Part shown: piece after piece, positions 18,057-59,912 of the stretch
Position numbering within the stretch: position 1 is the stretch's first letter
Layout: every line of letters begins with the position of its first letter
NCBI GenBank assembly: GCA_009911715.1
Contig: CP047880.1
Location: forward strand, 1,116,001 to 1,180,000
Length of the DNA: 64,000 bases
Direction: 5' to 3'
Source: Methanomassiliicoccaceae archaeon DOK
Lineage (GTDB): Archaea > Thermoplasmatota > Thermoplasmata > Methanomassiliicoccales > Methanomethylophilaceae
Program-made: the position numbers and the translations under genes
The notes under the pieces: model-generated
Seen by the model: the letters and a program-made list of their open reading frames with translations, nothing else
Told to the model about the DNA's origin: nothing
Databases searched by the model: none

Positions 18057-18263
18057 TCACGCCCCTTTCTCCCAGTAACACTCCTCGTACCAAGTCACCA
18101 GTCCCGCGTCGTCCATGTACCCCATCGTCAAATCGAACAGCTCCGGATAAGGTATGGTCCCCTTCAGATCATCGTCTGATATCGGACCGAACCGGTTGAT
18201 TGTAAGCAGTACGGCGTTCACATTCTCTAGCATCATTCTAGCGAGCTCCTGTCTCTTTTTCAT
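18057..18263 (-). CDS. Small winged-helix-like protein
   Basis: 68 aa from the ATG at 18263: 'RMMLENVNAVLLTINRFGPISDDDLKG..PYPELFDLTMGYMDDAGLVTWY' reads as a wHTH unit. The start is supported by a TATA-like ATATTT/AAATAT (18284-18289) about 24 nt upstream, fitting a leaderless transcript; an upstream ATG at 18389 would add 42 residues. It lies next to and divergent from a surface-protein gene, an arrangement repeated at 47126 and 53789. Confidence 0.5.
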   Translation of the reverse strand: MKKRQELARMMLENVNAVLLTINRFGPISDDDLKGTIPYPELFDLTMGYMDDAGLVTWYEECYWEKGA

Positions 18264-18509
18264 GACGGTGTCTCGCACTGATGATATTTGAAGAGGGAAC
18301 CGTGCATACACATTGACATTCATAAACCATCGAAAAACGGCTGTTTCCGAGGAAATCTCAGATCCTCTCATTTCTACTATATAAAACAATACTAGTTCCG
18401 ATATTCTTAGAAATCATCATCCAGTCATCATGATTACCTAGATTTCCACTGAACTGAGAACAAGAAGGTCGTACGCCGTTGGTTTCTCAGAAAATCGGTT
18501 TTGTCCCGC

Positions 18510-20207: not shown

Positions 20208-20213
20208 AGGGAT

Positions 20214-26901: not shown

Positions 26902-26902
26902 G

Positions 26903-37674: not shown

Positions 37675-37678
37675 GGCG

Positions 37679-38149: not shown

Positions 38150-38150
38150 C

Positions 38151-39693: not shown

Positions 39694-39694
39694 C

Positions 39695-41130: not shown

Positions 41131-41131
41131 C

Positions 41132-42896: not shown

Positions 42897-43660
42897 GCAA
42901 GAGGAAGACTGAGAAGATCCCGACGGATGCGGACGGTTTCGTGAACCCGGACTATCTGATCGAGTTCGAATCCAAACGCAACCAGAAGTCAAGACTGACT
43001 GATGAAATGAAGATCGCCGGCACAGTGTTCGCCCCTCTAGTGACTGTCAAGCAGGCGGGGCAGTGGATGAACCGTCCCAACAGATACGACATCGCAGGCA
43101 TAGACGCCCCGATGGAGGTCGCCAACGTTCCCGTGGGAGGGTTCCCCCGGAAGAAGAAAAAGAGGGTCAGGCATCCAAACGGCCCCACATACTCCCAGGC
43201 GTTCTGGGACTCCCTGGACTGGGAGAACGATCCCGTCGGTGCATCGAGAATGGCCGCCATGGCCATGGAGGTGGAAAAACACGGACTCACAGAGGACATG
43301 CGTGCGCTCCTTGAGGACGACGCTTATGGCGAGGTCATGGGCTCAGACCGCTGGAAACGCGACGACAGGGCAGCCGCGGAAGCCTACAGGAGGCACATGC
43401 TCTCCGACATGGGGATGATGGACTCCGCCAACCGTAGACACGCGTCCTTCGGTAGGAAACCGTACGAATGGGAGAAGCTCGCCGGCAACGTGTACACGAT
43501 CCATGACGCCGAAGGTGACTACATCGACGTCACGAAACTAAAGGAGAAGGGCCCGGGATGGTTCGCTTGCGCGAACGCATGGGGTCTTCCGTACACCAAG
43601 TTCAAGACGAAGGAGGAGGCGATGGACTTCGCCGAATCGCTGATGGGGATGGGAAGATGA
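42893..43660 (+). CDS. DIxGID-module protein
   Basis: 255 aa. The module sits at the extreme N-terminus (9-73: 'IPTDADGFVNPDYL...QAGQWMNRPNRYDIAGIDAP'), immediately followed by 'RKKKKRVRHP'. The helical body ends in 'WFACANAWGLPYTKFKTKEEAMDFAESL'. ATGA-coupled to the preceding module protein. Confidence 0.6.
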   Translation: MSKRKTEKIPTDADGFVNPDYLIEFESKRNQKSRLTDEMKIAGTVFAPLVTVKQAGQWMNRPNRYDIAGIDAPMEVANVPVGGFPRKKKKRVRHPNGPTYSQAFWDSLDWENDPVGASRMAAMAMEVEKHGLTEDMRALLEDDAYGEVMGSDRWKRDDRAAAEAYRRHMLSDMGMMDSANRRHASFGRKPYEWEKLAGNVYTIHDAEGDYIDVTKLKEKGPGWFACANAWGLPYTKFKTKEEAMDFAESLMGMGR

Positions 43661-44013
43661 GACTGATGAACAAGAACGCCAATAGGAGGGACCTGAACCC
43701 GCCCGAGATGCTCCACCATGCCGCAAGACGGGGAACGGAGCTCATCGTTCTGGACGCCAGGTTCCCGCGCGCATCCTGTTGGGAACAGTGCGGGGAATGC
43801 GACACTGAGTTCGTGATGGCAGCATACCATCCGGAGGCGTGCCCCCACTGCGGTATGGCCGTCCTGCCGTGCAACATGTGCGACCCAGACACCGGGGACT
43901 GCCGCGACTGCCCATACGAGGCGATGTCGGGCAGGAGGATAGGCCCGGACCACCGCTCCAAGGACGAATTGGAGGGCGATTGGAACAGGAAAACCTTTGG
44001 GAGGAGAAGATGA
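43657..44013 (+). CDS. Cys-rich zinc-binding protein
   Basis: 118 aa with CGEC, CPHC, CNMC and CRDC pairs (about residues 45-88), enough for two zinc sites. Basic ends ('NRKTFGRRR'). ATGA-coupled on both sides. Probably a double zinc ribbon; partner unknown. Confidence 0.65.
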   Translation: MRLMNKNANRRDLNPPEMLHHAARRGTELIVLDARFPRASCWEQCGECDTEFVMAAYHPEACPHCGMAVLPCNMCDPDTGDCRDCPYEAMSGRRIGPDHRSKDELEGDWNRKTFGRRR

Positions 44014-44109
44014 CTGAACCGATGACAAGTTGTCACCATGCACTGAACTGGACCGACACGCCTTCGTGGGCACTCTTCGGGTCTGGTTCGCATGGTGAAG
44101 AAGCTGAGA
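44010..44109 (+). pseudogene. Out-of-frame fragment of an NWxxxPSWAL domain
   Basis: A coupled ATGA start at 44010 opens 'ALNWTDTPSWALFGSGSHGEEAE', clearly similar to 'YNGWANRPTWALYTGITSYETE' at the start of the gene at 37679. The frame then runs into the coding region of the next gene in a non-matching frame. Either a truncated paralogue or a frameshifted N-terminal part of the following gene. Confidence 0.45.
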
Positions 44110-45420
44110 CGCACCGAAGGCGGTTCCCCGATAATCGAGAACCGCTTCGAAATCGATTCCACCGGCACCGACTACGGTTACTTCGACACCAGGGGCGCCG
44201 CCGCTTATGTGGAGGACAAGGACGGTTTCTCGCACCGCGTCCCCATCGATTCCGACGGCAAGGTCCCATTGTTCGCCATCGTACAGCACTTCCTGGACAT
44301 CGACATGGCCAGGAAGAAAGGGAGCCCGAGGAACATCGCAATAGACCTTCGCAAGCCGGCTAAGACCCTTCACCGGATACCCACAGGCGGGTTCACACCG
44401 GAGCAGATTGTCGCCACGGGATGGTGGGACGATCCCTCCAGCTGCGACATAGAGGGCCTGGACGACTCCACCAACGCGTACATGGGGTTCTGGGACAAGG
44501 TCGGGAAATCCGTCAGAACGAAGACTCCGAGGATAGCCGTCATCGGCACGCCTTCGGAGAGGGAGAAGATCATGACCGCCCTCTCCCAGAACTTCACCGG
44601 GAAGGAGCTGGAGTCCGCTGTCAAGGACGGCGGCATCGTCGTCATGGCAAGCCCCACCGGGAAGAGGGGCGTGGCCGGGTTCTACATGAGGAGGCAGGAC
44701 GGCCTGGAGACCCCGGTGATAGTAGCAAAGTCCCTGGACGAGGACACCATCACCCACGAGTTCACCCATCACCTCAGACAGACCGATCCCAAGAGGGCCG
44801 GTTTCTCCAAGACACCGTACAACCTGGACGAGAACGGACGCATGGTCCGCGATAACGGCCTGAGTTACGAGTCATACTCCAACCTGGAGGAGGCTGCCAC
44901 TGTGGCCGAGACGATCACGCGCACGCGCAAACCTGCAGAGGCGTGCGGATACTTCTGGTACCTTCACGGCACCGAGGAGGGACGCATCGGCCAGTCGGCG
45001 TACGACCACGACAGGGAGACGCTCCTGGAGAATGGCGGCGGTAAGGGCGGCCCGCTGCGCGGCAAGCGTGCCACCGACCGTGTCAACCAGCGCTTTTTGG
45101 ATACCGACATCTCCAAGCTCAAGAACGGAGGAAAGGGAACCAGGGCGGACAGGATGGCCCGCCAACTGGCAGGCATCCCGGAGCCGAAGCCTGTGCCCAG
45201 CGACAAGCCGGGGGCGTGGAACCGCGTGACTGCGGGCCACTGGCAGACCAAGGACCTGAAAGGCGAGACGATTGACCTCTACAAGCCCGGATCCAAGGGG
45301 AATCAGACCCGCAAATGGAAACTGGAGTACGGCGACAGATCAGTCACGTTCTTCGACCGCAGCGATGCCGAACAGGAGGTTATCTGGCTTTTGGACAGGC
45401 AGAGGAGGGAGCTCGCATGA
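44092..45420 (+). CDS. Putative metallopeptidase with DIxGID module (paralogue of the one at 35875)
   Basis: 442 aa. Module at about 45-124 ('RVPIDSDGKVPLF...PEQIVATGWWDDPSSCDIEGLD'). Peptidase domain with His222-Glu223-Phe-Thr-His226 and 'ATVAETITRT' (Glu273). The upstream 'RIAVIGTPSEREKIMTALSQNFT' region also aligns with the gene at 35875. A C-terminal extension (about 310-442) is absent from that paralogue and ends in an alpha/beta domain 'WKLEYGDRSVTFFDRSDAEQEVIWLLDRQ'. ATGA overlap with the next gene. Confidence 0.65.
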   Translation: MVKKLRRTEGGSPIIENRFEIDSTGTDYGYFDTRGAAAYVEDKDGFSHRVPIDSDGKVPLFAIVQHFLDIDMARKKGSPRNIAIDLRKPAKTLHRIPTGGFTPEQIVATGWWDDPSSCDIEGLDDSTNAYMGFWDKVGKSVRTKTPRIAVIGTPSEREKIMTALSQNFTGKELESAVKDGGIVVMASPTGKRGVAGFYMRRQDGLETPVIVAKSLDEDTITHEFTHHLRQTDPKRAGFSKTPYNLDENGRMVRDNGLSYESYSNLEEAATVAETITRTRKPAEACGYFWYLHGTEEGRIGQSAYDHDRETLLENGGGKGGPLRGKRATDRVNQRFLDTDISKLKNGGKGTRADRMARQLAGIPEPKPVPSDKPGAWNRVTAGHWQTKDLKGETIDLYKPGSKGNQTRKWKLEYGDRSVTFFDRSDAEQEVIWLLDRQRRELA

Positions 45421-45680
45421 TGTCGTGCCCCTACTGCGACTCCGACGACATACGCCTGAAGGAAGTCCTGAGACTGACCTTGCTCGATTTACAAAAAGAC
45501 GGGAACTCCGTCGTGGAGATCAGGAGGGAGGTCTGCATGGAATGTCGCGAGACATCCTACGCGTACCGCGTATACAGTTCCGACGATTCTTTCGAATTCA
45601 TACGCAGAGACCAGCTCAAGGCCAGGACTGGCATCAGGGCGAGGTCCGAGTTCGGAAATGCCAGGGGGTGGAGAGCATGA
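45417..45680 (+). CDS. Zinc-ribbon protein
   Basis: 87 aa. CPYC near residue 4 and CMEC near residue 41 frame a long beta hairpin; a basic C-terminus follows ('KARTGIRARSEFGNARGWRA'). The start at 45417 is the ATGA overlap. Confidence 0.6.
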   Translation: MMSCPYCDSDDIRLKEVLRLTLLDLQKDGNSVVEIRREVCMECRETSYAYRVYSSDDSFEFIRRDQLKARTGIRARSEFGNARGWRA

Positions 45681-45889
45681 GCAGCAAGTGCTACCAGGAT
45701 GTGCTACAGGCCGTGGTCGATGACTATTGTTCCAAGGCCGGGCTTGACAGGATCCTGGTCTCCAGAGGGGCGGAGACCGCCCTCCGGAGAATCATGGAGA
45801 ACGAACCCGCGTCGACTGACCCGTCACTACCGTCGCTGAGAAGAGCTGTCATTGCCAGATTGTCATACTGCGCAAAGGTGATGGCATGA
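45677..45889 (+). CDS. Small helical protein
   Basis: 70 aa, helical ('SKCYQDVLQAVVDDYCSKAGLDRIL'), not recognised. ATGA-coupled upstream, and its stop overlaps an ATGATG that opens the amber-interrupted frame after it. Confidence 0.55.
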   Translation: MSSKCYQDVLQAVVDDYCSKAGLDRILVSRGAETALRRIMENEPASTDPSLPSLRRAVIARLSYCAKVMA

Positions 45890-46936: not shown

Positions 46937-47089
46937 GAAATTGAATCGATCCATTGGCCTGCTGTTCAGGTTCGAATCAAGCAGGTCACCACCCCCAACA
47001 CAGTCTTCGTCCCTGTCTTCCACCTGGCCCGTTCATACACCAGATTGCATCCAAGCTATTGAGAACTCGCTGGCTTATAGTTGAGATGT

Positions 47090-47107
47090 CCCTCCCTGAG
47101 GGGAGGG
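47090..47107. terminator. Hairpin between converging genes
   Basis: CCCTCCC-TGAG-GGGAGGG, a perfect 7-bp stem between the surface-protein gene ending at 46936 and the convergent wHTH gene ending at 47126. Could serve as a two-way terminator; no long T-run. Confidence 0.35.
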
Positions 47108-47125
47108 TAAGAAGGTTGAATTTGG

Positions 47126-47404
47126 TCATTGTGTGGACATCAGGTCGTCGATGTCACCAAGATCCCGGGCTACATTGGCCCCGATGTCCGTCAAACTCAC
47201 CATGCTCGTGATTCCGAAATTCTCTATTGAGATGAGTCCTGCCCGCTCCAAAGCATCCAGCTTCGAGGGCATGTTGGCGTTACGACCGACCGCACTGTAA
47301 ACCCTGGTCTTGGTCACGGGCCCGCTCTCCGACAGGAACAGCAGAATCGGGATCATGTGCGTGTCGCACAAAAGACCAATGGGGCGGTCACATGCCACTC
47401 TCAT
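47126..47404 (-). CDS. Winged-helix regulator coupled to a giant adhesin
   Basis: 92 aa from 47404. 'MIPILLFLSESGPVTKTRVYSAVGRNANMPSKLDALERAGLISI' followed by 'MVSLTDIGANVARDL' is a typical small archaeal wHTH. The ATG overlaps the stop of the adhesin gene (47401-51456) as ATGA, so it should be cotranslated with it and may feed back on its promoter. Confidence 0.65.
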   Translation of the reverse strand: MRVACDRPIGLLCDTHMIPILLFLSESGPVTKTRVYSAVGRNANMPSKLDALERAGLISIENFGITSMVSLTDIGANVARDLGDIDDLMSTQ

Positions 47405-50400
47405 TCCCTCCTGTGTGTAATGATAAGGAACGCGGCAATCAGTGCTGCAACGACTGCCGCGGCAGCACACGCCACAATCTTCACACTGTCGTCATCATAT
47501 GATCCTGACTCGTCCACGATAACCGGTGGGAGTGGGACGTAGTCGTCATCGTCGTCTACCGGCGGAACGATCACAGGGCCGTAGTCGCCTCCAGGACCGG
47601 GCTCGGATGAAACCTCCTGCATGGTATATTCTAACGTGGCATCACCTGTGACGTTGATCGTCTTGCTGATGGTGACGTAGCCTTCCAACTCGATAGTTAT
47701 CGAATACGATCCACCCTCGACCTCGACCGTATCACCGTTCTGGATAAGTACACCGTCGAAGGTGATGGTCGCACCAGATGGAATGACAGAGATGGTGACG
47801 TTGTACAGAGGGTTCTCCACCCTGTCAATAGGGTCTGAACTTTCTTCATCATCTACAGTCGCCTGATCTGACGACTTCAGAAGCTGGAACTGCGGATCGT
47901 CGTAGGTGTATCCTGTGCCCTCCCCGAAGGTGATGGTGGCGATCTCGCCCCAAACGGATGACATCTCGTTGAGGATTCCCAGCGATATGCCGTTGAATGC
48001 CAGCTTCGTTCCGACCTCGGTGATCAGACTGGCGTTGCTGACCCCGGAGACAGTCGTGTCCATGTTGACGGAGTAATAAGTGCCGCCGATGAACGTCACC
48101 TCTCCCCCGAGAGTGACCGTGGAACCGTTGATCACCAACGGGGCATGGAATTCTTCTCTTCCTTGAGAAGCATCGAGGACCACGTCCTTCAGGGTTAGAT
48201 CTGCACCAAAGGCGTTGACTACGTGCTTGTTCTTGTCGGTGACCTTGAGGGTCCCGTTCATCACGGTGATGTCCTCCGCAGTGACGTTGAGTAGGTGGCT
48301 GGAGTTTTCATTGCTGGATGAGAAGTCACCAGACGAAGTGATGGTGAATCCTCCGAGATCGATGGTTATGCCGTTTGTGCTCAGGTTGAGCTGGCTGTCG
48401 ATGTACACGTCTTCAAGGAGTGTGACCGTTTTGTCCTCAGAGTTGGCGGCTGCAGTGATAGCCTCATCGAGCGTCGCGTAACCGGTATCGCCCACAACTG
48501 CGACCCACGGATCATAGCAGACATCCGAAAGGTTCTCTATCGCATTTCCATCAAGGGTGTTGCCCTGGAACGTCTCCGCTACCACCATGGCCTGGGCGGG
48601 GATCGTTGGACTGTTCGAGAAGAACACACGTCCGGACCCACCTGTGATGGTGTTGTTTGTATAATCGATCGCGGTGGTTCCGGCCTTCTGAACCGAGTGG
48701 ATGTACACCGTGGCAACGTGATTGGAATCATATTTGGTGTCTTTGGGGTTGTCCTTGATGTCCGAGAATGTATTGTCTGCAATCTTCACTGTGTTGTTCA
48801 CGTTCTCGTTCACGAATGCGATATTGAGACCGCGCTCGTAACCATTGAATATATTGTTCACAACGACCACGGTGGTTCCCGTGGAGGAACCATCGCCTGG
48901 GTGGATGGCTCCCCTCACCATGCCGTTCCCGTTGAATGTGGTGCCAGTAACCGTGAGCTCATCGACGCTGTATGTCCAGATCAGATAAGATGTGTTAGTC
49001 GATTCCGGTGCATTCAGTATGCAATCTTTGACTGTCAGGCTGTGGATGGACGAGGTTATGTAGAGGACATGATGACTGGACGAGAATGCACAGCCCTCGA
49101 ACACAAGACTTAGTCCGGACTTATCCGACTTGCTGTAGTCAGCAATGCAATTATTGTTGAAGACCAGGTTCTCGAACCTGACCGTACCGTTCACATCTGG
49201 CATATCAATGGAACCACAGGCTATCCTGTCTTCTCCGTTTCCAATGATCGACAGGGGCTTGTTTATTCCCGTTATGCTACCCAGTTCCCCGGAGACCATG
49301 ATGATGCCGCCCGAATTGACCAATTCGAGAGCCTTCTCTAATGTCTTGACTGGAGATTCCGACGTCCCTGCATTACTATCATCCCCGGTTTCAGTATCCA
49401 GATAGATGGTGTTGGGATCCGTTACACCGGTGTCCTGGACGAACATCTGTCCGTCGAAATCATTGTTGGCGGTAATCTGATCCGTATCCAGCACAGAACT
49501 TGTGATGGTTTTATTGTGCTGACGGAAGACTGCAGCACCTCCGGTGGACTCATTGCCTTCGACGGTTATCGTGGCGTTGCTGTAATCACCATTGGATGAG
49601 AACTGGATGAGTCCACGGGTTCCGTCTTTGTTTTCCTCAGCGGTACCTGTAGTGTCTATGTTCGTGAATATGTTGTCAGAGATGGTGTAATTTCCCTTCG
49701 GAACATCACCCTCGAAATAGATGGCGCCGCCACAGTCCGTGAAATGGCAACCAACGATTTCGGCGTTCTCGGAATAGATGTCCTTGATGGCATATGCGTT
49801 GTATACATTGGTGAAGGAACACGCGGTAACGGACGTGTCACCACGACTGGAGAATGGGCTGACTATAACCTTTTCGAAGGTGCAGTTGTCGAGTGTCACA
49901 TCCCCGGAGTTGTTGAACTGGAGCTCCGCGTTGAGGACTCCATCGGCAGAGAATTTTCCTTGCTGCCATTCGCTGTTGAGACAGAGAGCGAACTCTGAGG
50001 GTATGAACTCGAAATCGATGTTCTTTATGGTTACATCCGCGCTTCCGGCAAAGATCTGGTACTGGGCGTTGAACCCCTGGACTCTGTCAGGAGCGGAATA
50101 GCTATCTGGATATGCTGAATTGGTTCCATTACAAGAGGTGCTGTCAATCTTGCATGTATGGTTAGTCCCATTCCTGCAAGCTGAAGCAGGAACGATTTTT
50201 ACCTTCACATCCTCTCCTGATACGGGCTGGATGGTTACAGCGGTGGAGAGACTGGCGGGAAGAAACATTCCGTACTCGCCACCCGGTATGAACAGCTCCA
50301 CCACTCCTGTCTGACCTTCGATGGCATCCTCGACCGAGGAGAATGCCGTTCCATCTCTGATGATGGTGAGCATGTTGGCTCCGGAATTTGTGCCCTCGAG

Positions 50401-51456
50401 CCTGTTGTCGCTGATATCGACATTTTCTGGCTCAACAACGACGCCGGCTCCACGCTGACCGCCGGTTATGTATCCCATCTGCACACCGGGGCTGTCACTC
50501 TCCAATGTGATTCCTGATACAATACTTCCTTTGAGAGAACCGCCTCCGTTATCCCAGTCTGTGAACAGGCCGACAAGTCCGCCGATAGCAGAGGACTCGG
50601 GATTGTCGGCTATGTATTCGGCAGTACCGTTGCTTCTGACAACAGAGTTCTTCACTGTGCAATTGGTGAAATCATTATTGGGGTATGCCGACCCCGCCAG
50701 TCCGCCGACCTTGCGGGTTCCGTCGACTGTAATCTTCTCTACAGAGCACTCGGAGATTGTGATGTCCTCCTCGCCCAAGAAACCGATGAGTCCGCCGACA
50801 CAGTCGCCTTCGAAATCCTTTTCGAGATTATGTCCGGAGACTTTGCTTCCATCGGTTCCGACGACACTGCAGCTGGAGATGCTTGCATACCCTCCTCCGA
50901 TAAGGCCGCCGACCTTGTAATTTCCTTCGATGTCTATGTCCCCAGCTACTTTGCAACCGGATACTGATCCTGTCTGAGCACATCCTATCAGTCCTCCAAC
51001 CAGTGACTTGGCAGTTATCGAAACAACATCCAACGTAACGTTCTGAATCGAAGCGGGCGTGAGGATGTATCCGAAAAGACCTGCACATTCCATGTTCGGA
51101 TCGTTTATACTCAAATTGCTGACGGTGTATCCGGCCCCGTTGAAGGTCCCCTTGAACGGATTCTTTTCGGTACCTATAGGAGTCCATGCATACCCGTTCA
51201 GATTGATAGAATCGGACAGGGATACTGTCTTTCCTTCTAGATCGTTACCGTTATTGACGATGGCGGACAGACCTGCAAGCTGGCTTGCTGTGGATATTGT
51301 GAATGTCGACTTATCCTCTTCGTACCATGTCTGATCGCTTTCCGATCCGTCCCAAGTCGAAGTCGCTTCGGATTCATCTGGCATTATACCGACCAGACAT
51401 ACTGTCATCATCAGGGCGACAACTATTGCAGCCATCGCCGTCGATTTATTGTTCAT
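47401..51456 (-). CDS. Giant beta-helix adhesin-like surface protein
   Basis: 1351 aa. Signal peptide (about 8-32, after 'MNNKSTAMAAI'), GLUG-like repeats near the N-terminus ('VGGLIGCAQTGSVSGCKVAG', 'VGGLIGGGYASISSC'), a long right-handed beta-helix-like middle with many 'ITNNTF/ISDNIF' turns and Asn sequons, then a PEGA-like segment ('IPSGATITFDGVLIQNGDTVEVEGGSY') and a C-terminal 'DDDDYVPLPPV' motif, one membrane helix and 'HRRE'. The C-terminal unit is shared with the divergent gene at 51848. A 13-nt G tract (coding-strand sense) lies 45 nt upstream of the start. Candidate phase-variable adhesin. Confidence 0.75.
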   Translation of the reverse strand: MNNKSTAMAAIVVALMMTVCLVGIMPDESEATSTWDGSESDQTWYEEDKSTFTISTASQLAGLSAIVNNGNDLEGKTVSLSDSINLNGYAWTPIGTEKNPFKGTFNGAGYTVSNLSINDPNMECAGLFGYILTPASIQNVTLDVVSITAKSLVGGLIGCAQTGSVSGCKVAGDIDIEGNYKVGGLIGGGYASISSCSVVGTDGSKVSGHNLEKDFEGDCVGGLIGFLGEEDITISECSVEKITVDGTRKVGGLAGSAYPNNDFTNCTVKNSVVRSNGTAEYIADNPESSAIGGLVGLFTDWDNGGGSLKGSIVSGITLESDSPGVQMGYITGGQRGAGVVVEPENVDISDNRLEGTNSGANMLTIIRDGTAFSSVEDAIEGQTGVVELFIPGGEYGMFLPASLSTAVTIQPVSGEDVKVKIVPASACRNGTNHTCKIDSTSCNGTNSAYPDSYSAPDRVQGFNAQYQIFAGSADVTIKNIDFEFIPSEFALCLNSEWQQGKFSADGVLNAELQFNNSGDVTLDNCTFEKVIVSPFSSRGDTSVTACSFTNVYNAYAIKDIYSENAEIVGCHFTDCGGAIYFEGDVPKGNYTISDNIFTNIDTTGTAEENKDGTRGLIQFSSNGDYSNATITVEGNESTGGAAVFRQHNKTITSSVLDTDQITANNDFDGQMFVQDTGVTDPNTIYLDTETGDDSNAGTSESPVKTLEKALELVNSGGIIMVSGELGSITGINKPLSIIGNGEDRIACGSIDMPDVNGTVRFENLVFNNNCIADYSKSDKSGLSLVFEGCAFSSSHHVLYITSSIHSLTVKDCILNAPESTNTSYLIWTYSVDELTVTGTTFNGNGMVRGAIHPGDGSSTGTTVVVVNNIFNGYERGLNIAFVNENVNNTVKIADNTFSDIKDNPKDTKYDSNHVATVYIHSVQKAGTTAIDYTNNTITGGSGRVFFSNSPTIPAQAMVVAETFQGNTLDGNAIENLSDVCYDPWVAVVGDTGYATLDEAITAAANSEDKTVTLLEDVYIDSQLNLSTNGITIDLGGFTITSSGDFSSSNENSSHLLNVTAEDITVMNGTLKVTDKNKHVVNAFGADLTLKDVVLDASQGREEFHAPLVINGSTVTLGGEVTFIGGTYYSVNMDTTVSGVSNASLITEVGTKLAFNGISLGILNEMSSVWGEIATITFGEGTGYTYDDPQFQLLKSSDQATVDDEESSDPIDRVENPLYNVTISVIPSGATITFDGVLIQNGDTVEVEGGSYSITIELEGYVTISKTINVTGDATLEYTMQEVSSEPGPGGDYGPVIVPPVDDDDDYVPLPPVIVDESGSYDDDSVKIVACAAAAVVAALIAAFLIITHRRE

Positions 51457-51501
51457 CTTTCCTCCTGTACGGAGGGACGGGAGGGAGAAACAGAAGTGTC
51501 G

Positions 51502-51514
51502 CCCCCCCCCCCCC
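51502..51514 (-). repeat. Homopolymeric tract of 13 (G on the minus strand)
   Basis: 13 C on the plus strand, i.e. 13 G in the sense of the gene starting at 51456, ending 45 nt before its ATG. Long mononucleotide runs change length by slipped-strand mispairing. Confidence 0.75.
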
Positions 51515-51789
51515 GTTGCGCTGTTCGCATAATGACATGCTCGATTGAACAGTTAAATGTTATCGCTATGTGTTCCTATTAACATAGTCCACAGATTATA
51601 AATTGGCATTATCATTTAAGCTCAAAACCTTCCAATTCTGTGGCAAACTAAACAAGTTCTATGGAATCATGCTCTGAAATTGGGTTAAATCAAAAGTATT
51701 TCGAAGAAGTATTTTCAATATTATGGTTTGTGAAACATATATTATGCTTCTTGAAGATTACATACAACAGACACAAAGGAAGGTGTCAC

Positions 51790-51799
51790 GGGGGGGGGG
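51790..51799 (+). repeat. Homopolymeric tract of 10 G
   Basis: 10 G ending 48 nt before the ATG at 51848, mirroring the tract of the divergent adhesin. A TATA-like ATATATTATG (51738-51747) lies upstream, placing the run in the leader or near the start of transcription. Confidence 0.75.
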
Positions 51800-51847
51800 A
51801 TTCTCCGAATAGGTTCTTCCCTCCGCCCTCGAAACTGAGGGACAATA

Positions 51848-53596
51848 ATGAACAACACAATGAAAGCGGTAATAGCCGCTACGATTGCAGTATCCATGAT
51901 GCTGTGTTCTGCCTCCTTGCTATCAGATTCGTACGTCGATGCCGACGAACCGATTCAGACGATAGATCTGGATGCCGAATACCTTGAATCGATTGAATCG
52001 ATTGAATCCGGAAATGTGTACGCTTTACCAAGCGATACTGCGTACATCCTCACAGATGACCTCGATCTGGGTGCGAATTACCTGAAGACATCCGGGAACT
52101 GCTCCATAGATCTTGCCGGCAATGTGATCAGATCCAGCAACGACTACCCCTTGACCGTCGATACACTGAATGGTGCTGGGACTACGACTATATCGGACAG
52201 TGTAGGTGGTGGAGGAATCATCGGCTCGGGAACAGCAGCCGTCAGGAACAACGGCAACCTTGTCATCACCGGTGGAACCTTCGAAGGCCAGAGCAACGCC
52301 GTGAATCAGCCGAGCAACGGAAAGTCCCTGACGATTACCAGCGGGACCTTTGAAGCCAACATCCCAATAGAGATTGTCGGAGGAACAGCGAACATAGATG
52401 GAGGAACATTCACAGGAACGTTTGCCGGACTCGAATCCAGATTCCCAACAGGGTTCCTGACCAGCAACTACGTCATGCCTTCAGTCGTCATCTCGGGAGG
52501 AACGTTCAGCGGGGACTACGGAGTCTACACACGCGTCGGCTCCCTGACCATCGCCGACAGTGAACTCAATGGAGACGCCTATGGATTATTCATCGAGACC
52601 ATACCCACAAGCCCGAGCTACAACTCATCGTACCAATCACCTACTGTGACGATTGACGACACCGTTGTAACAGGCCAGCATGGCATCGTGATTGAGGGGG
52701 ATGATGACCACACCGCCACGCTGGTTGTGAACGGCGGAACGATCACTGGACTGAACGGATCCGCAATAAGTGGAAACGGTTCGAGGGACAACACAACTGT
52801 CACCATAAACGACGGCACGCTTACAGGGAACAACAACCCCGGGATATACCACCCTCAGACAGGAGACCTGACAATCAACGGCGGAACAATCACCGGAGAG
52901 AGCGGAGTCCAGTTCTGCGGCAGCGGGAACGTCACAATCAACGGCGGTACCCTTGTTGGGACGTATCCGGCATTGGACAACCCCGGGAAGCCCTCAGGCA
53001 ATTCTGACGGAGCAGGGGTGGATGGCGCCGCCCTCTCCATAGTCAGCCGTGGCCCAGGATACCAGGAAGAGGGGACGACTGTGAACGTCTCCATCAATGG
53101 TGGGACGTTCATCAGCGACAACAACTCACCGATAGCTTCCTACAGACTCCAACAGACGACAGAAGGCAATTGGGCGAGCAACGACGAAACCGATCTGAAC
53201 AGTTCGCTGGGGATTTTCTCCATATCCGCAGGATCTTTCGAGGGACCGTCATACAGGCCTTCCATAGATTTCGATGAATCACAGGACGCCGCGGGGAAGT
53301 ACGGCATATCCGGAGGGACGTTCACAGGGGGAGTCGAGACCTCGTTCATCGTTGACGGCGTGGACTTCGAAATCGGTGATGACGGCTCTGTATCGGTAGG
53401 TGACGATGTTATCGAGGAGGATCGCCCATACATACCCCCGATACAGGATGACGACGACTATGTGCCTCTCCCGCCTGTTGTGGTCTACGAGGATGATGAT
53501 TCCAACGACACCACCACCATCGTCGCCTGCGCAGCCGCTGCGGTTGTCGCCGCTCTGATGGCTGTCTTCCTGATCATCGAGAGAAGGAGAAACTGA
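51848..53596 (+). CDS. Beta-helix adhesin-like surface protein
   Basis: 582 aa. Signal peptide (about 5-27), then many short beta-helix turns of the form 'ITGGTFEG', 'IDGGTFTG', 'INGGTITG' (about 90-400), and a C-terminal 'DDDDYVPLPPVV' segment, one membrane helix ('IVACAAAAVVAALMAVFLII') and 'ERRRN'. The last 50 residues are closely similar to those of the protein at 47401. A CCCTC...GAGGG hairpin lies just before the ATG. Candidate phase-variable adhesin because of the 10-G tract upstream. Confidence 0.75.
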   Translation: MNNTMKAVIAATIAVSMMLCSASLLSDSYVDADEPIQTIDLDAEYLESIESIESGNVYALPSDTAYILTDDLDLGANYLKTSGNCSIDLAGNVIRSSNDYPLTVDTLNGAGTTTISDSVGGGGIIGSGTAAVRNNGNLVITGGTFEGQSNAVNQPSNGKSLTITSGTFEANIPIEIVGGTANIDGGTFTGTFAGLESRFPTGFLTSNYVMPSVVISGGTFSGDYGVYTRVGSLTIADSELNGDAYGLFIETIPTSPSYNSSYQSPTVTIDDTVVTGQHGIVIEGDDDHTATLVVNGGTITGLNGSAISGNGSRDNTTVTINDGTLTGNNNPGIYHPQTGDLTINGGTITGESGVQFCGSGNVTINGGTLVGTYPALDNPGKPSGNSDGAGVDGAALSIVSRGPGYQEEGTTVNVSINGGTFISDNNSPIASYRLQQTTEGNWASNDETDLNSSLGIFSISAGSFEGPSYRPSIDFDESQDAAGKYGISGGTFTGGVETSFIVDGVDFEIGDDGSVSVGDDVIEEDRPYIPPIQDDDDYVPLPPVVVYEDDDSNDTTTIVACAAAAVVAALMAVFLIIERRRN

Positions 53597-53618
53597 ACTA
53601 CCGCTAATAAACACCTTA

Positions 53619-53643
53619 CCCCGGCACGATGCATGTACCGGGG
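53619..53643 (+). terminator. Hairpin after the adhesin gene
   Basis: CCCCGG (53619-53624) pairs with CCGGGG (53638-53643), 22 nt after the stop at 53596. A T-rich run does not follow directly; moderate terminator candidate. Confidence 0.4.
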
Positions 53644-53788
53644 ACCCTTCTTCCGACATGCCTGTGCCATGCTGGCACATAATCTGATGCATAGAATGAT
53701 GGGATTCGATCGACGATGCATCGCATATTCGATCCGTGGTCGCACCGTTGAAATATCCTGTGAGAATACACGAAGACAGCTGGGGACG

Positions 53789-54100
53789 TCAACTGCTCCC
53801 GTCGCCGTCAGGCGCATCGGCGTCCTCCGGCTCCCCGAGGATCATGTCAGCCCTATGAAGGAGCTCCGCCAGTTCTGAGCCCTTACAGGTCAGGCTCAGG
53901 AACGTCCTTCCATCGGCACTGGTCGACTCTAGGAGACCTTGCTCAACCATTCTCGAGATCTTCTCGGATGTATGGGCATTGCGGGACACCATCCTGTAAA
54001 TGTCAGACCTCATGCATCCAGGATTGGCTCTGATGAAGAGCAGGATGTCGGCGGAGTTCGCCGCCCCCAGGAATCTGCCGATACAGCTTCTCTCGCCCAT
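53789..54100 (-). CDS. Winged-helix regulator beside an adhesin
   Basis: 103 aa. 'ADILLFIRANPGCMRSDIYRMVSRNAHTSEKISRMVEQGLLE' then 'FLSLTCKGSELAELLHRADMI' is the same wHTH layout as the gene at 47126. Convergent with the adhesin at 51848. The IS element begins 46 nt upstream of its start and probably replaced or altered its promoter. Confidence 0.65.
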   Translation of the reverse strand: MGERSCIGRFLGAANSADILLFIRANPGCMRSDIYRMVSRNAHTSEKISRMVEQGLLESTSADGRTFLSLTCKGSELAELLHRADMILGEPEDADAPDGDGSS

Positions 54101-54145
54101 GAATCAGACATATCATATTATGTATTCCAATGTGTCGAGAGATAA

Positions 54146-54170
54146 TCTGATACTTTTTGGTTGATATTTT
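54146..54170 (+). repeat. Left terminal inverted repeat of the IS
   Basis: 25 nt, matching the inverse of 55289-55313 with two mismatches (positions 9 and 14). Confidence 0.8.
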
Positions 54171-54203
54171 ATATTTATACTCTCATCCCATTTCGGTGAT
54201 GAG

Positions 54204-55302
54204 ATGGGCAAGAGGGGCCCCAAACAGAAGTTTCTGGACGTTTCGTGTCCGAACGAGGACTGCCGGCATTACGGAGTCCTTGGTCAAGGCAACATTATAG
54301 CCAACGGCACATACCAGACCAAGTCCGGAACCGTCCGCAAATACAAGTGCAAGACGTGCGGTCGTGTGTTCAACGACCGCACCGGCACTGCGTACGAGTA
54401 TACGCATCTGACCCGCGAGCAGCACAACCTTATCGTGGCGTGCCAGGCCAACGGTGTCGGCGTCCTTCGGACCACCGACATCGTCGGCTGCACGCCGAAG
54501 ACCGTCATGAAAAGGACCAAGAAGGGCGGCAACCATGCTAAGCTCGTATCGGAGAGCTTGGAGAGAGAGGGAAGGTTCGTCCGGTGTGCCTCCAGTTCGA
54601 CGAGGTGCTGTACACTTTAAAAAAAAGATGATCTTCGTCGGGGACCATTTCAGAGAGGACGGAGATTGGATCTGGACCTCTTTCTGCTCCGTTGAGAAAT
54701 ATCTTCTCGGCATCGTCGCCGACGGGAGAGGGCACGATGTCGCCGAGAGGGTCGTCAACGGCGAGCTGGACAAGCTCGCCGTCGACCATGTCCCCTACTT
54801 CATGACGGACGGTTACAAACCGTACCGTACGGTTCTCCTGGAAAGGTACGGGATGTATGTGATCGGTAACAGGGGACGCGGTCGGCCAGGGGCCGACAGC
54901 CTGGTGCCCTCCGATCGGCTGAACTACGCGATCGTGGAGAAGACCCGTGAAGGCAGGAGACTGAGAAAGGTCAGAAGATACGACGTGTACGGACATGTGC
55001 CAGACGACCTGATGAACACGTCAGCCATCGAGCGTCGGAATCTCACGATCAGACTGTTGTCCTCAAGAGCCAGACGCCGCACCGTGACCTTCGGGAGGTC
55101 GAGGGAGGCCGTCCAGGCCTCCCTCGAATTGCTGAAGGTGAACTACAACCTGTGCATGCCGCACTCTTCACTCTCCCTTCGCAGAAGGGAGAATGATGGA
55201 AAGCACGAACCAGTCACACCTGCCATGAGAATGGGTCTGACCGACCACGTTTGGAGCATCGGGGAGTTGATGTCTTTTTGTTATAGACAAAATATCAACT
55301 AA
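54204..55302 (+). pseudogene. IS1-family transposase, split by two frameshifts
   Basis: The first part (from 54204) has an InsA-like zinc finger ('CPNEDC...CKTCGRVF') and HTH. A second, short frame carries 'VCLQFDEVLYTLKK' with the first catalytic Asp. A third frame (to 55302) carries 'YFMTDGYKPY' (second Asp), 'NTSAIERRNLTIR' (Glu) and the family's 'TPAMRMGLTDHVWSIGELM' end. Two -1 shifts are needed: one near GAGAGAGAGGG (about 54560) and one at an A8 run (54619-54626). IS1 elements use one programmed shift at an A-run; the other is likely a real mutation. Confidence 0.75.
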
Positions 55303-55313
55303 AATGTATCAGA
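55289..55313 (-). repeat. Right terminal inverted repeat of the IS
   Basis: 25 nt, the inverse partner of 54146-54170. The transposase stop lies inside this end region. Confidence 0.8.
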
Positions 55314-55398
55314 CTACCATGCAGAAATTATAAGAAATCCTGTTCAGAGGAACCGTTGCCCGATGAATAATAAAGTGGAAAAACTGAAGTTGAAAGGG

Positions 55399-55426
55399 GA
55401 GGGACGGCCCCTTAATTCCGTCCCTC
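55399..55426 (-). terminator. Terminator-like hairpin after the minus-strand adhesin
   Basis: GAGGGACGG and CCGTCCCTC with a 10-nt loop, about 115 nt after the stop of the gene ending at 55542 (minus). On the minus strand a TTTTT run follows within about 25 nt. Confidence 0.45.
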
Positions 55427-55541
55427 TCGTTTGCTGTTCAGGTTTCTGTCGGTTGCGCTCTCTCAACGCGGGAGCAGATGTACTCGTATGTTCGCGTTCT
55501 CTGTGCGTTCAACCCTTTTGTTTTGTTCTGGTTCAGTAGCT

Positions 55542-58500
55542 TCAGCTCCTCATGAGCCTCATAGCGACCATGATTGCCATGACGACGATGAGGATGACGA
55601 GGATGATGAGCAGGTAGTCAGTGAGACCCATTCCGGAGTCGTCATCACCGGGTATGACGACCTGTCCACCCTGAGACGGGGAGGCTCCGGTGGCGTAGAT
55701 GATGTTGTCTCCGCCGAGCATGTCGCTGGTGACGGTGAAGGTTCCGCTGATCGTGGTTCCATTGAGGGTCACGACGGGGGTTCCCTCGTAGCCGGCATCG
55801 ACGTACACGGTGATGGTGTGCTCGCCGATGGTGAGGTTGACAGATCCGAGGTTTCCGACGTTGATGTCATCGATGTAGATGGAGAGTCCGGGCCCCTCGG
55901 AGATCCTGATGTCGACTCCGGCGTACTCGACCTCCGCAGTCAGGATGTCGTAGTCTCCGACGACTCCGCTCTTGATCTCCTGCTCGCCGTAGTACCATAC
56001 GGGAGCGACCTCGACTTCCGCGCCATTCTTCGTCTGCGTGAACTCGAGGTTCTCCATGGTCATGATCGTCTTGTCGAGGACGTTGTAGGCAACACCGTCT
56101 GTGGCGTAGACCGTTGCGTACTCGATGTCGTTGATAACGTAGGATGTGGCCTCAGCGACGACCGTTCCGTCCATGAGGTCGGCATCCGCGACGGATGCTC
56201 CGTTGAACACGGCGACATAGGCTCCGTTGCTCATGTCGACCTGTCCGACGACGGCACCGGTTCCGGTGGCTCCGAGGAGCTCGGGAGCGGCTCCGACGAA
56301 GAGGGCTCCTCCGTTGAGGGTCATGGCCCCCTCGTTGTTCTCCTCTGCGGAGACGGTGAGGGTTCCGGTGATGGTCAGCACATAGGGGCTAGGAACGTTG
56401 GGTGTGACAGAGGCATTGGTCCATGTTCCGACAATGATCTGTCCTCCGTTGTCGATGACGACGTCTCCGGAGAGGATCATGTCGGACTTGATGGAGACCT
56501 GGGTCTGGACCTCGATGGTTCCCTCGTTCACCAGGTAGTTGTTGTTGTCAAGGTCCCCGGTCATGTCGATGGAGAAGTTGATGGCATCTCCGGCGATGAC
56601 GAGGGTCGCTCCGTTGGCGACTGTCAGGGCGTTGCTCCTGTTAATCACGATGCTATCTTCGGTGTCGAGTGTGACGGTTCCTGCCGAGACAGTGACGGTT
56701 CCGTCGATTCCGTCGATGCTGAGAGAGTACTCATAGGCTCCGGTGGAGTTGAGCACGGATCCGCTGGAGACGCCGACGGTGCTCTTGGATACAGACACGG
56801 TGCTGTCTACGGCGGCTTCGCCGACACCGGCGGGTCCGGTGACGGTGGCTGTGTAGACAGCTCTGGTAGCGTCGGAATCGACTGCGATGGACGCTCCGTC
56901 GCTGAGGGCGACGTTTCCGAGGGTCACCGCGGAATCGTTTCCGACGATTACGAGGCCGACGCCCTCGAGGGCGATGTCTCCGGTCTCGGAGAAGGTTCCG
57001 GTCGCGTTGACGGGTGTTGTGAGTCCGTTCTTCGCGATGTACGTGGCAGCATTGGACACGGATGTGTAGACACGGTCACCGTCGGTGTAGTAGGCGGAGT
57101 TGGCCTTCACGTAGGTGTCGGCGATTCCTGTTCCATCGGTGATGACGGATCCTGTGGAGTAGAGGTTGACGTTGGCATGTTTGGCTTTGTCATCGCTAAC
57201 AGCGGCGGAGATGGCTCCGTTCTCGGAGGCGTCGATGGTTCCCGCGACGGTGATGGTTGCATCCCTGTCGGGTGTTCCGACGATGAGGTCGGAGCTGTTA
57301 CCGAGGTTCAGCTCTCCGTCAGTCTGGACAGTGACGTTTCCGGTGACCTTGAGATAGAGGTCGTCACCGACGTTGACGGTGACACCGGTGATGATGGTCA
57401 TGTTGCCCTTGTAGGTGGCGTTTCCGACGATGTCGATGACATCTCCGGTGGCGGCGTTGTCGAGGGCGATCTTGAATCCGGAGTAGACGGTGACGCCGGT
57501 CTCCTTGTTAGAGGTCATGACGGCGTACTGAGTGTCAGCAGCGGGCTTGTATCCTCCCTCGTTGACGACGACGCGTCCCTCGATGGCCTGGAAGGCCGTG
57601 TTGGAGACGGATCCGTCTGCGAGGACGGTGATGGTGGCGTTCTCTCCGACGGTGACCTCGGAGTCTCCGGCGATGGACTGATCGGCGGCGACCTCGTAGT
57701 TCTGGTCGATGGTGAACTCTCCGGCGATGGTGATCTCCTGGTCGACTGCCGTGGAGATGGCGTTCATGGCGGCACCGAAGTTGGTGTAGTAAGCCATCAC
57801 GGAAGTGACGTTCTCGACCGTGGACTCGACGGTGTAGTAGGCACCGATGTAGTCAATGCTGTCGACGTTCTCATCCTCCTCGTCCTGGACGGTTCCGGAA
57901 ACGGAAACGTCGAAGGTTCCCGTGACGACGATCTCCTTGGGGATGTACAGGAGCTCGGAGACGTAGGTGGGCATCTTGTAGGTGGCATTGGCGGCTCCGA
58001 GTGTGGATCCGTTAAAAGTCACCTCGTTGTCAGCCTCTGTTTTATTATTGGAATCGACCTGTCCGAGCGTTCCGTTGACGAACAGTCTCTGGACGACATC
58101 GGATCCGGTTCCATCGGCGTTGGGCAGGGTTACCCTGTCTGCGAGGACGGTGATGCCTTTGACGTTCTTTGTGAGGACGACAGAGGAGTATGTGCTCTGG
58201 ACATCGGTGGAGTCCTTTGTGTAGGGGGTCTGATAGATGACATCCTCGTTTCCGACGTAACCTGTCTTGACGGAGATGGTTCCGGTGGTGGACCCGTTGA
58301 TGACGGCGCTGGCTCCGTCGAGGAGCTCAAATGTGTTGGTCAGAGTCGCAGTAGCGTTGTTGTTGACGGTGAAGACGACGTTCTTTGCAACGGTGACGTT
58401 CTCGGCTGTGAACGTAACGTTCCTGCCGATGGTGAGGTCGTCGTTCACTGTCACTCCCTTGATTCTGAGCTGGGCGTTGTCGACAGAGCTGATCTTGGCG

Positions 58501-59882
58501 ATGTCTCCGGAGACGACGAGGTTGTAGGCGCTGCCACTCCTGGCGAGGCTCATGCTGACGCCGGAGACTCCCTTCATGGAGATGCTCTGGTCGGCGATGC
58601 CCTGGCCGGTGATGGTAACGGTGTTGGTATCTCCGAGAATTCCGTTGTTCTCGATGGATCCGGTCCTGGTGAGTACGATTCCGTTCACCCCACCGGTGAC
58701 GGAGGAGGTGACGACACCGTTCCTTTCGATGACCAGGGTTCCCTCGATGGTGATGTCGTGGTTCAGCATGTCGAGGGTTCCGCTGCCGGAAATGGTCAGG
58801 GTCCTTCCCTCGGGGATGGTCAGATCGTCTGTCAGGTATGCCATATCCTCGACAGTGAGGTCCGCGTTGATGGTGTCGCCGATACCGAGGTTTCCGGACA
58901 TGATGACCGAGCTTTCCTCTCCGAGGGAGACTCCATCGGCATAAGTAACGTCATTGACGCTGACACCGTTCATGTTGATGGTGGTGCTGACATTCTGATT
59001 ATTGTACGTCCCGGCGACGAACTCTCCGGAGACGGACCCGCCGTTGATCGTGATGCTGACCGCCTTGGCGCTGGTGGCGAGCACCTTCATCTGGCTGGCG
59101 GAGATGGAACCGCCGGCGTTCTGGACGGTGATTCCACTGGTGAAGTAGATGTTGGAGTTGTTCGCATCGACGGTTCCGGCGATGGTTGAGTTGGCGCCGA
59201 TGTTAATATTGGTGTCTTCGGAATCTCCGTCGAGAATCCTGACGGATGTTCCGGACTCCATGTCGAGGGATTTGAAGGTCAGGTTCGCAAACTGAGCTTT
59301 CTGCACGGTGATGGCGGATGTGCCGTCGAGATCAGCGGCGACGTTCGAGATGCCGTTGGCGGCGTCGAAGACCATGTTGGCATCGCCGGACATTTTGAGG
59401 TTCTCGGCACCTGAGTTATACCAGGACTGCCCCTCGGAGGACTGGCTGATGGTCAGTGTTCCCCCATTCTGGATCGTGATGCTAAGGTCCTGGAAGATGT
59501 GTGTGTTCGTGCGTCCCTCGCCTGTCATGACGATCTTGACCGAGGCCCCTTCGCCGACGGTGATGTCGACGCCATCAATCATCGACTGGTAGTTTGCAGT
59601 GGCCGCGAAGGTCAGGGTAAGTGTGAAATTACCGTTGATAGTGAGCGAGCCACCGGACAGGTTGTTGGATGAGGTTGTGAGGGGAGTTGTAATCTCAACC
59701 TCTTTGTCTTCAGTGAGTGTGTAAATTCCACCATTTACAGCACTTAGGAAGTCGTCCTGTTCCGGTGTCGCCGCGTTTACTCCGTTGTCAGAGAGGACGA
59801 CTGCAGCACCTGCGATAACCATAGCCATAGCAAGTACAGCAACCAGGATCTTTCCTGTGTTTTTGTTCATGTATGCATTCAT
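55542..59882 (-). CDS. Giant repetitive membrane-anchored surface protein
   Basis: 1446 aa. Start 'MNAYMNKNTGKILVAVLAM'; the second Met (residue 5) may be the true start, as relatives begin MNK or MNN. Signal peptide to about residue 37, then over 1300 residues of short beta-strand repeats with many Asn, Thr and Val ('LTISGSGTLDMLNHDITIEGTL'), resembling beta-helix autotransporter-like passenger domains. C-terminal 'PGDDDSGMGLTDYLLIILVILIVVMAIMVAMRLMRS' gives one membrane helix with a basic end. Paralogue of the gene at 61503, with a near-identical leader. Confidence 0.75.
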   Translation of the reverse strand: MNAYMNKNTGKILVAVLAMAMVIAGAAVVLSDNGVNAATPEQDDFLSAVNGGIYTLTEDKEVEITTPLTTSSNNLSGGSLTINGNFTLTLTFAATANYQSMIDGVDITVGEGASVKIVMTGEGRTNTHIFQDLSITIQNGGTLTISQSSEGQSWYNSGAENLKMSGDANMVFDAANGISNVAADLDGTSAITVQKAQFANLTFKSLDMESGTSVRILDGDSEDTNINIGANSTIAGTVDANNSNIYFTSGITVQNAGGSISASQMKVLATSAKAVSITINGGSVSGEFVAGTYNNQNVSTTINMNGVSVNDVTYADGVSLGEESSVIMSGNLGIGDTINADLTVEDMAYLTDDLTIPEGRTLTISGSGTLDMLNHDITIEGTLVIERNGVVTSSVTGGVNGIVLTRTGSIENNGILGDTNTVTITGQGIADQSISMKGVSGVSMSLARSGSAYNLVVSGDIAKISSVDNAQLRIKGVTVNDDLTIGRNVTFTAENVTVAKNVVFTVNNNATATLTNTFELLDGASAVINGSTTGTISVKTGYVGNEDVIYQTPYTKDSTDVQSTYSSVVLTKNVKGITVLADRVTLPNADGTGSDVVQRLFVNGTLGQVDSNNKTEADNEVTFNGSTLGAANATYKMPTYVSELLYIPKEIVVTGTFDVSVSGTVQDEEDENVDSIDYIGAYYTVESTVENVTSVMAYYTNFGAAMNAISTAVDQEITIAGEFTIDQNYEVAADQSIAGDSEVTVGENATITVLADGSVSNTAFQAIEGRVVVNEGGYKPAADTQYAVMTSNKETGVTVYSGFKIALDNAATGDVIDIVGNATYKGNMTIITGVTVNVGDDLYLKVTGNVTVQTDGELNLGNSSDLIVGTPDRDATITVAGTIDASENGAISAAVSDDKAKHANVNLYSTGSVITDGTGIADTYVKANSAYYTDGDRVYTSVSNAATYIAKNGLTTPVNATGTFSETGDIALEGVGLVIVGNDSAVTLGNVALSDGASIAVDSDATRAVYTATVTGPAGVGEAAVDSTVSVSKSTVGVSSGSVLNSTGAYEYSLSIDGIDGTVTVSAGTVTLDTEDSIVINRSNALTVANGATLVIAGDAINFSIDMTGDLDNNNYLVNEGTIEVQTQVSIKSDMILSGDVVIDNGGQIIVGTWTNASVTPNVPSPYVLTITGTLTVSAEENNEGAMTLNGGALFVGAAPELLGATGTGAVVGQVDMSNGAYVAVFNGASVADADLMDGTVVAEATSYVINDIEYATVYATDGVAYNVLDKTIMTMENLEFTQTKNGAEVEVAPVWYYGEQEIKSGVVGDYDILTAEVEYAGVDIRISEGPGLSIYIDDINVGNLGSVNLTIGEHTITVYVDAGYEGTPVVTLNGTTISGTFTVTSDMLGGDNIIYATGASPSQGGQVVIPGDDDSGMGLTDYLLIILVILIVVMAIMVAMRLMRS

Positions 59883-59892
59883 AGGAACAAAT

Positions 59893-59912
59893 GACGTTCA
59901 TTTCCTAACGTC
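59893..59912. promoter_or_regulatory. Small inverted repeat in the adhesin leader
   Basis: GACGTT (59893-59898) and AACGTC (59907-59912), centred about 20 nt before the ATG at 59882. A TATA-like TTTATTT lies further upstream on the minus strand near 59955-59963. Possible operator or leader hairpin. Confidence 0.35.

Follow-up and report, generated by a model that had tools for sequence, protein, structure and literature searches.

A 64,000-nucleotide stretch of the chromosome of Methanomassiliicoccaceae archaeon DOK (contig CP047880.1, positions 1,116,001 to 1,180,000; this entire stretch is called the window, and positions without a prefix are counted from its first letter) encodes large surface proteins, here called adhesins, whose genes are accompanied by homopolymeric G tracts and by genes for small winged helix-turn-helix (wHTH) proteins, and which we discuss as candidate phase-variable cassettes (Table 1). 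In the first of them, the gene of wHTH1 is the last cistron. Its start was taken to be the ATG at 47404 (the gene caller put it two codons later), which gives a protein of 92 amino acids (aa) in place of an open reading frame (ORF) of 114 aa starting with GTG. The ATG overlaps the stop codon of the adhesin gene 47401-51456 in an ATGA motif, with GGAGG just upstream, bearing out the ATGA-coupled arrangement that had been proposed from an unaided inspection of the window (hereafter, the sequence-only reading). The G tracts that the same reading had invoked are real, namely, C13 at 51502-51514 and G10 at 51790-51799.

The AlphaFold model of wHTH1 (mean pLDDT 89.2) shows a winged helix and a long C-terminal helix, and its top matches in the Protein Data Bank, searched with Foldseek, are AF1382 (E 8.8e-5; TM score 0.74-0.76 by query length) and MarR/ArsR-type regulators. 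A sequence profile matched MarR structures weakly (best E 2.6e-4). At the level of domain families, wHTH1 stays below every Pfam cut-off (best 19 bits versus a cut-off of 27), and the first family member scanned against NCBIfam reached 16.3 bits versus a cut-off of 125. As modelled, wHTH1 is a MarR/ArsR-like winged-helix protein. AF1382 and related small archaeal winged-helix proteins, which provide the best fold match, are of similar size; the matched record names no function, and we know of no adhesin context for proteins of this type.

Table 1. Features of the window and of related loci (C1, chromosome of this genome unless another genome is named; L, examined loci; types A and B are defined in the text)
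Feature	Position	Strand	Basis or context
wHTH1, 92 aa, predicted MarR/ArsR-like winged helix, last cistron of adhesin cassette; type A	47126..47404	-	ATGA overlap, family, AlphaFold, Foldseek; behind 1351-aa adhesin
Large surface protein, 1351 aa	47401..51456	-	signal-peptide-like start, GLUG and PEGA domains, TIVACAAAA-type C-terminal membrane tail
Leader of adhesin 47401-51456: G tract, pyrimidine-rich block, CCUCC/GGAGG hairpin over Shine-Dalgarno sequence	51457..51514	-	prediction
G13 tract (C13 on plus strand), 45 nt 5' of start of adhesin 47401-51456	51502..51514	-	sequence
G10 tract, 48 nt 5' of adhesin 51848	51790..51799	+	sequence
Leader of adhesin 51848, CCCUC/GAGGG Shine-Dalgarno hairpin	51790..51847	+	differs from CCUCC/GGAGG by two pairs, each altered on both sides
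Another adhesin with a G tract, 582 aa, tail of the same type, without coupled wHTH	51848..53596	+	gene map, tail
wHTH2, 103 aa, type B (behind TDYLLI-tail gene)	53789..54100	-	family HMM, paralogue context
IS1-like insertion, ORFs 54204-54620 and 54535-55302	about 54146..55313	+	about 25-bp inverted ends read by eye
Surface protein, 1446 aa, with TDYLLI tail, likely original wHTH2 partner	55542..59882	-	tail, strand
Claimed third wHTH, doubtful gene, outside family	18057..18389	-	Pfam, family HMM, gene caller
Type A member	C1:130331		behind 3487-aa frame
Type A member	C1:783556		behind 333-aa protein
Type A member	C1:60104		behind frame of at least 2005 aa
Type B member	C1:1332042		172 nt behind TDYLLI...MRLMRS-tail gene
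Type B member	C1:1314698		164 nt behind TDYLLI...MRLMRS-tail gene
Type B member	C1:1342974		179 nt behind TDYLLI...MRLMRS-tail gene
Tract-bearing wHTH loci with N-terminal extension	L140, L147, L148, L153 (G026, G036); L212, L217 (G091)

Winged-helix genes and their surface-gene neighbours

A profile hidden Markov model (HMM) built from twelve members retrieved 16 genes of the wHTH1 family from this genome (coded G000; 1.889-Mb chromosome, C1) at a threshold of E 0.001. Two arrangements at surface genes recur. In type A, which has four members, the wHTH gene overlaps the 3' end of a surface gene by exactly 4 nucleotides (nt); the tails of these coupled adhesins differ among themselves. In type B, the wHTH gene lies behind a gene whose product ends in a TDYLLI...MRLMRS membrane tail. 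This type comprises four members, including wHTH2, with 46-54% identity to C1:1332042. The nine TDYLLI-tail genes of the genome form six arrays, and in four of these the next same-strand gene encodes a wHTH protein, in one case beyond an insertion; four members in the relative G003 likewise stand behind TDYLLI-type tails. Examples among the remaining eight of the 16 members are one that follows an SSF sodium:solute symporter gene, one that follows an HMGL-like gene and one that stands opposite a small-multidrug-resistance gene. One conserved member (C1:949542) and its orthologues stand behind a sodium:solute symporter gene in 20 of the 28 genomes examined, the symporters being called by length and membrane segments, with Pfam SSF run on one of them. 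Six surface proteins scanned for domains contain PEGA, GLUG, Ig-like or MBG domains, Listeria-Bacteroides repeats, or no known domain.

Of 100 genomes of the taxonomic family, 72 have matches to the type A profile and 48 to the type B profile, with overlap between the two; type A counts range from 3 to 22 per genome in the genus of the window and from 0 to 4 elsewhere. The relatives referred to individually are coded G003, G016, G026, G036, G057, G077, G080, G087, G091 and G092. All matches were examined in five genomes, which yielded 77 members: 16 here and 61 from G003, G026, G036 and G057 (62 matches minus one second piece of the same place in G057). A member was considered surface-linked if the next gene upstream lay within 300 nt in the same orientation and encoded a protein with a surface-type tail. 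By this definition, 22 of the 77 members are surface-linked versus 3 of 73 control genes from eight other 10-kb regions of G000 (Fisher p 3.6e-5, a descriptive value because the members are paralogous, hence non-independent, and the control comes from a single genome). Coupling at a spacing of -4 to +5 nt was found for 17 members in all, namely, 4 here, 11 in G057 and 2 in G087.

The linkage is concentrated in particular branches of the family tree. The coupled subclade is surface-linked in all 14 members (support 80) and the type B subclade of this genome in all four (support 98), in trees that are based on few columns and have weak deep support. In two trees, the second restricted to 139 of the 147 rows by omission of eight long-branch or odd ones, the 'coupled' label requires 3 changes (shuffled mean 12.1), and the label 'tail', denoting a position behind a tail-type gene, requires 6 and 5 (shuffled 9.6 and 10.3). 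Three labels were set by hand: a member in G080, behind a truncated symporter, as 'other', G057 C1:13614, preceded by a frame of only 56 codons, as 'coupled' and wHTH2 as tail type.

Pairing is strictest in the immediate subfamily of wHTH1. When 31 genomes of the genus were scanned with the profile of this subfamily, 11 members emerged, ten in G057 and one here, scoring at least 144.8 bits, the next match being at 78.6; all 11 lie -4 to +5 nt behind a frame with an ACAAAA-type tail. In eight of the ten G057 cassettes, a tract of 9-12 G occupies the leader or the first codons; in the tenth (16873), no tract reaches a length of 8. The ninth (L171) carries a C13 tract in the mRNA sense (G057 C1:118635-118647), 16 nt before the start; a G-rich block lies upstream of this tract, and the pairing in the leader seems mirrored. 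Comparison of the ten G057 paralogues gives ratios of nonsynonymous to synonymous substitution rates that stay below 1 for every one of the 45 pairs (median 0.46, maximum 0.73). In the recognition helix, M45, P46 and K48 are invariant across the 11 proteins and positions 47, 50 and 51 vary, a pattern compatible with shared as well as with private targets.

Guanine tracts and adhesin leaders

Thirteen tracts of nine or more G are present in this genome, eight at surface genes and five in other intergenic places. In six cases, the tract precedes the ATG of an adhesin with an ACAAAA-type tail by 41-48 nt, and in one it stands directly before the GTG from which a 2156-aa frame with a signal-peptide-like start is called. 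The eighth, a G9 tract in the region C1:119788-119900 (L060), splits the signal peptide from the body of the 3487-aa frame preceding C1:130331; the assembly places the two parts in different frames, the picture that a switch in its off state would give. Three of the four ATGA-coupled regulators follow a G-tract surface gene or gene run. Furthermore, six tracts of 10-12 G were found in G026, G036 and G091 inside, or within 41 nt of, wHTH genes belonging to another subclade, and five of the six adjoin a surface-type gene according to our reading of the gene maps. The placement of a slippage-prone tract on the adhesin or on the regulator in separate lineages is the best indirect evidence for one shared circuit. 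The loci of the relatives were selected for their wHTH genes, so that tracts remote from such genes are under-sampled there.

The combination of a G tract, a pyrimidine block and a Shine-Dalgarno hairpin recurs in adhesin leaders of G000, G057, G087 and G092. A strict pattern (G tract, spacer and CCTCC/GGAGG hairpin) has matches in 5 of the 31 genomes, including one in G092 (C61) that lies inside a small membrane-protein gene and one in G077, and the reversed control pattern has none. In folding predictions for 14 leaders, the tract pairs with the pyrimidine block, and the Shine-Dalgarno sequence is mostly paired at the observed tract length in all 14. Lengthening from 8 to 15 G is predicted to open the Shine-Dalgarno sequence by at least 0.3 in seven leaders and not clearly in the other seven (mean gain 0.37 versus 0.08 with shuffled spacers); where predicted, opening requires more G than most leaders have. 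On the basis of these predictions, it is possible that the leader is an RNA switch set by tract length. TATA-like words stand 36-50 nt before the tract in 6 of 13 aligned leaders. An Rfam scan of positions 47000-60000 returned no match at E 0.1.

wHTH2, an intervening insertion and the rest of the window

wHTH2 is a distant member of the family of wHTH1 (E 1.9e-23 to the family HMM). Each of its three close paralogues follows, at a distance of 164-179 nt and on the same strand, a surface gene with the TDYLLI...MRLMRS tail. The corresponding gene in the window, 55542-59882, is separated from wHTH2 by 1441 nt because an IS1-like element, the sole copy in this genome, is inserted between them, and the sequence shared with the 3' regions of other TDYLLI-tail genes starts just behind this element. 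Given the paralogues and an insertion that accounts for the gap, the likely partner of wHTH2 is this same-strand surface gene and not the convergent adhesin 51848-53596. The sequence-only reading was, thus, right in recognizing a wHTH gene at 53789 that converges on an adhesin gene, but paired it with the wrong adhesin. The two ORFs of the IS1-like element overlap, with an A run at the junction that is a possible frameshift site. The 3' sequence at 55318-55518 has counterparts downstream of each of the other eight TDYLLI-tail genes, at 74-89% identity across stretches of differing length; it may be a terminator or an element for processing.

The ORF at 18057, which had been put forward as a third wHTH gene beside a surface gene, was rejected as a family member: it has no Pfam match up to E 1, scores E 0.19 against the family HMM, and only 59 aa of it are retained by the gene caller. 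Elsewhere in the window, positions 18581-31482 contain six surface-type genes in succession, with no wHTH gene following in the gene map; one of them, encoding 1413 aa, combines Listeria-Bacteroides repeats with Ig-like domains. Positions 1384-12160 and 31495-45889 are occupied by small, tightly packed plus-strand genes resembling those of mobile elements, of which few were scanned and none matched Pfam. An ORF inside one such run (8155-8442, plus strand) shows a weak match to the wHTH family (E 1.5e-6).

Candidate phase-variable cassettes and alternative explanations

We favour, with somewhat better than even confidence, the view that these loci are phase-variable adhesin cassettes, some of which carry a co-translated wHTH regulator as the last cistron, in a manner reminiscent of PapX and MrpJ. 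Slippage at the poly-G tract, which lies in the leader or shortly after the beginning of the coding region, would turn adhesin translation on or off, and ribosomes finishing the adhesin could restart on the overlapping or adjoining start of the regulator. The regulator would then be made while its adhesin is on, thus reporting it. As a putative DNA-binding protein, it would act, in a sense still conjectural, most likely on surface-gene promoters, whether in its own cassette, elsewhere or both; turning on one adhesin would thereby reset other parts of the surface. The sequence-only reading had suggested a stochastic switch combined with a dedicated regulator; the coupled regulators behind adhesins with poly-G in leaders or first codons, and the tracts in or beside regulator genes of relatives, agree with that proposal, but only two of the three genes it named belong to the family.

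The closest parallel is found in bacterial fimbriae. According to two papers (PMC6246914, PMC9820224), PapX, FocX and MrpJ are MarR-like proteins encoded last in fimbrial operons, of which pap and mrp are phase-variable; motility genes are repressed by PapX and papX by FocX, and MrpJ is able to activate the operon that encodes it. The same papers report mrpJ paralogues in 10 of 17 Proteus fimbrial operons (PMC9820224) and regulator expression that trends with that of the fimbrial operon (PMC6246914). PapX/FocX/SfaX and MrpJ share with the present loci a MarR-like winged helix that is encoded, by gene order, at the end of a putative adhesin operon, and the presence of several paralogues per genome. 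The differences are substantial. The proteins described here are archaeal and have about 92 aa versus 17 kDa; their partner is one large surface protein, without a chaperone-usher fimbria among the six surface proteins scanned; the regulator start overlaps or touches the adhesin stop; and the putative switch is a poly-G tract rather than promoter inversion or methylation. Furthermore, the archaellin families have no match in this genome, which contains no obvious counterpart of flagellar master-gene repression, so that repression of motility through archaella is unlikely. By analogy, the wHTH genes would work like PapX and MrpJ but fall outside that group.

A more elaborate version, which we put forward as tentative and less likely than not, is a surface-choice system in which the tract serves as a ruler. 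A short tract would pair only with the nearby pyrimidine block, leaving the Shine-Dalgarno sequence locked in its hairpin, whereas a longer one would invade the hairpin and free it; the giant adhesin, translated to its stop, would turn on the overlapping winged-helix gene, whose product would silence other cassettes. Few adhesins would then be displayed per cell, and in the relatives with tracts on wHTH genes, slippage would act on the regulator.

Several observations weigh against the cassette interpretation. In a sample of 73 members picked among the listed matches in 23 other genomes (G016 was omitted since its matches mirror those of G036), six are surface-linked, one of them being a truncated symporter, with no excess over the controls (p 0.25), and one 25-row subclade of the tree lacks any surface-linked member. 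The family at large is, therefore, not linked to adhesins, and the idea that it is adhesin-specific as a whole was rejected: the preference is a property of particular subclades, some of them exclusively surface-linked, and not of the wider wHTH family, which narrows the earlier expectation of a general preference for adhesin neighbours. The pairing of all 11 subfamily members may reflect duplication of one ancestral cassette, and because cassettes may multiply as units, it does not represent 11 independent events. In G057, the surface frame before C1:13608 is open only across its last 56 codons as assembled, and three further surface frames have no signal peptide in the called frame. Tight spacing is common, with 26 of 61 same-strand control pairs at -8 to +10 nt, 11 of these at -4. 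Five of the six ACAAAA-tailed G-tract adhesins here have no wHTH gene behind them, nor, judging from gene maps, do three tandem G-tract adhesins in G087 and four in G092, so that the regulator would be an addition to the switch rather than its core. No common operator was seen in 13 upstream regions aligned and viewed by eye, without a formal motif search.

Hitchhiking, in which a MarR-like family that is common and expanding came to have one copy behind an adhesin, this copy then multiplying with the cassette, its duties being unrelated to the surface, would account for the wide distribution of the family, for the members at symporter, HMGL-like and small-multidrug-resistance genes and for the lack of surface excess in the sample of other genomes; a single origin of the 'tail' regulators of G000 and G003, also compatible with it, is neither shown nor rejected (p-AU 0.588). 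We nevertheless consider hitchhiking unlikely, since surface-linked members group in several subclades, the coupled adhesins have differing tails, and other species carry poly-G in or beside regulator genes that mostly adjoin surface genes. It is comparably doubtful that feedback is purely local, each wHTH protein repressing only its own cassette to limit the dose of adhesin, without cross-talk. MarR-type regulators are commonly autoregulated, as stated in one source (PMC6246914), each of the ten G057 cassettes has one subfamily regulator, and the variable recognition-helix positions suit private targets; however, the invariant M45, P46 and K48 allow a shared target, and five G-tract adhesins here lack a dedicated regulator. 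Control by each regulator of whichever adhesin adjoins it, which would assign wHTH2 to the convergent gene at 51848, is highly improbable: the two lie only 192 nt apart, but all three close paralogues of wHTH2 follow a same-strand TDYLLI-tail gene, and the insertion explains why wHTH2 does not.

The tracts themselves recall known switches. Homopolymeric-tract contingency loci are familiar from Neisseria, Campylobacter and Helicobacter, with which the cassettes share long G tracts in the leaders or 5' coding regions of surface genes and a frame mismatch across a tract; they differ in the attached regulator, and the tracts described here come from a single assembly of the strain. A survey that included 18 archaeal genomes put forward homopolymeric A/T tracts as a mechanism of general occurrence (PMC2831843), and a 2025 review mentions archaea once, as a future direction (PMC11868660). 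In Helicobacter pylori, the length of a G-repeat in the 5' untranslated region of tlpB grades expression of a two-gene operon, and the small RNA RepG pairs with the repeat (PMC8295292). This is the nearest case known to us for G-repeat leaders, although the pairing partner there is a small RNA and the one predicted here lies in cis beside the Shine-Dalgarno sequence. Searches of the literature for phase variation or adhesin-like proteins together with archaea, methanogens or Methanomassiliicoccales, whose coverage left out most subscription papers, did not return a description of the arrangement or any paper combining Methanomassiliicoccales with 'phase variation'. An adhesin gene with its own regulator is known for bacterial fimbriae and was not found described for archaea.

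Phase variation, a central strategy among host-associated bacteria, seems hardly documented in archaea. If the interpretation as phase-variable cassettes is correct, these archaea of a methanogen lineage would carry switchable surface repertoires, with regulators reporting which adhesin is on, and the operon logic of PapX and MrpJ would have been built from unrelated surface genes. This would bear on the attachment of such archaea to their partners and on their evasion of viruses.

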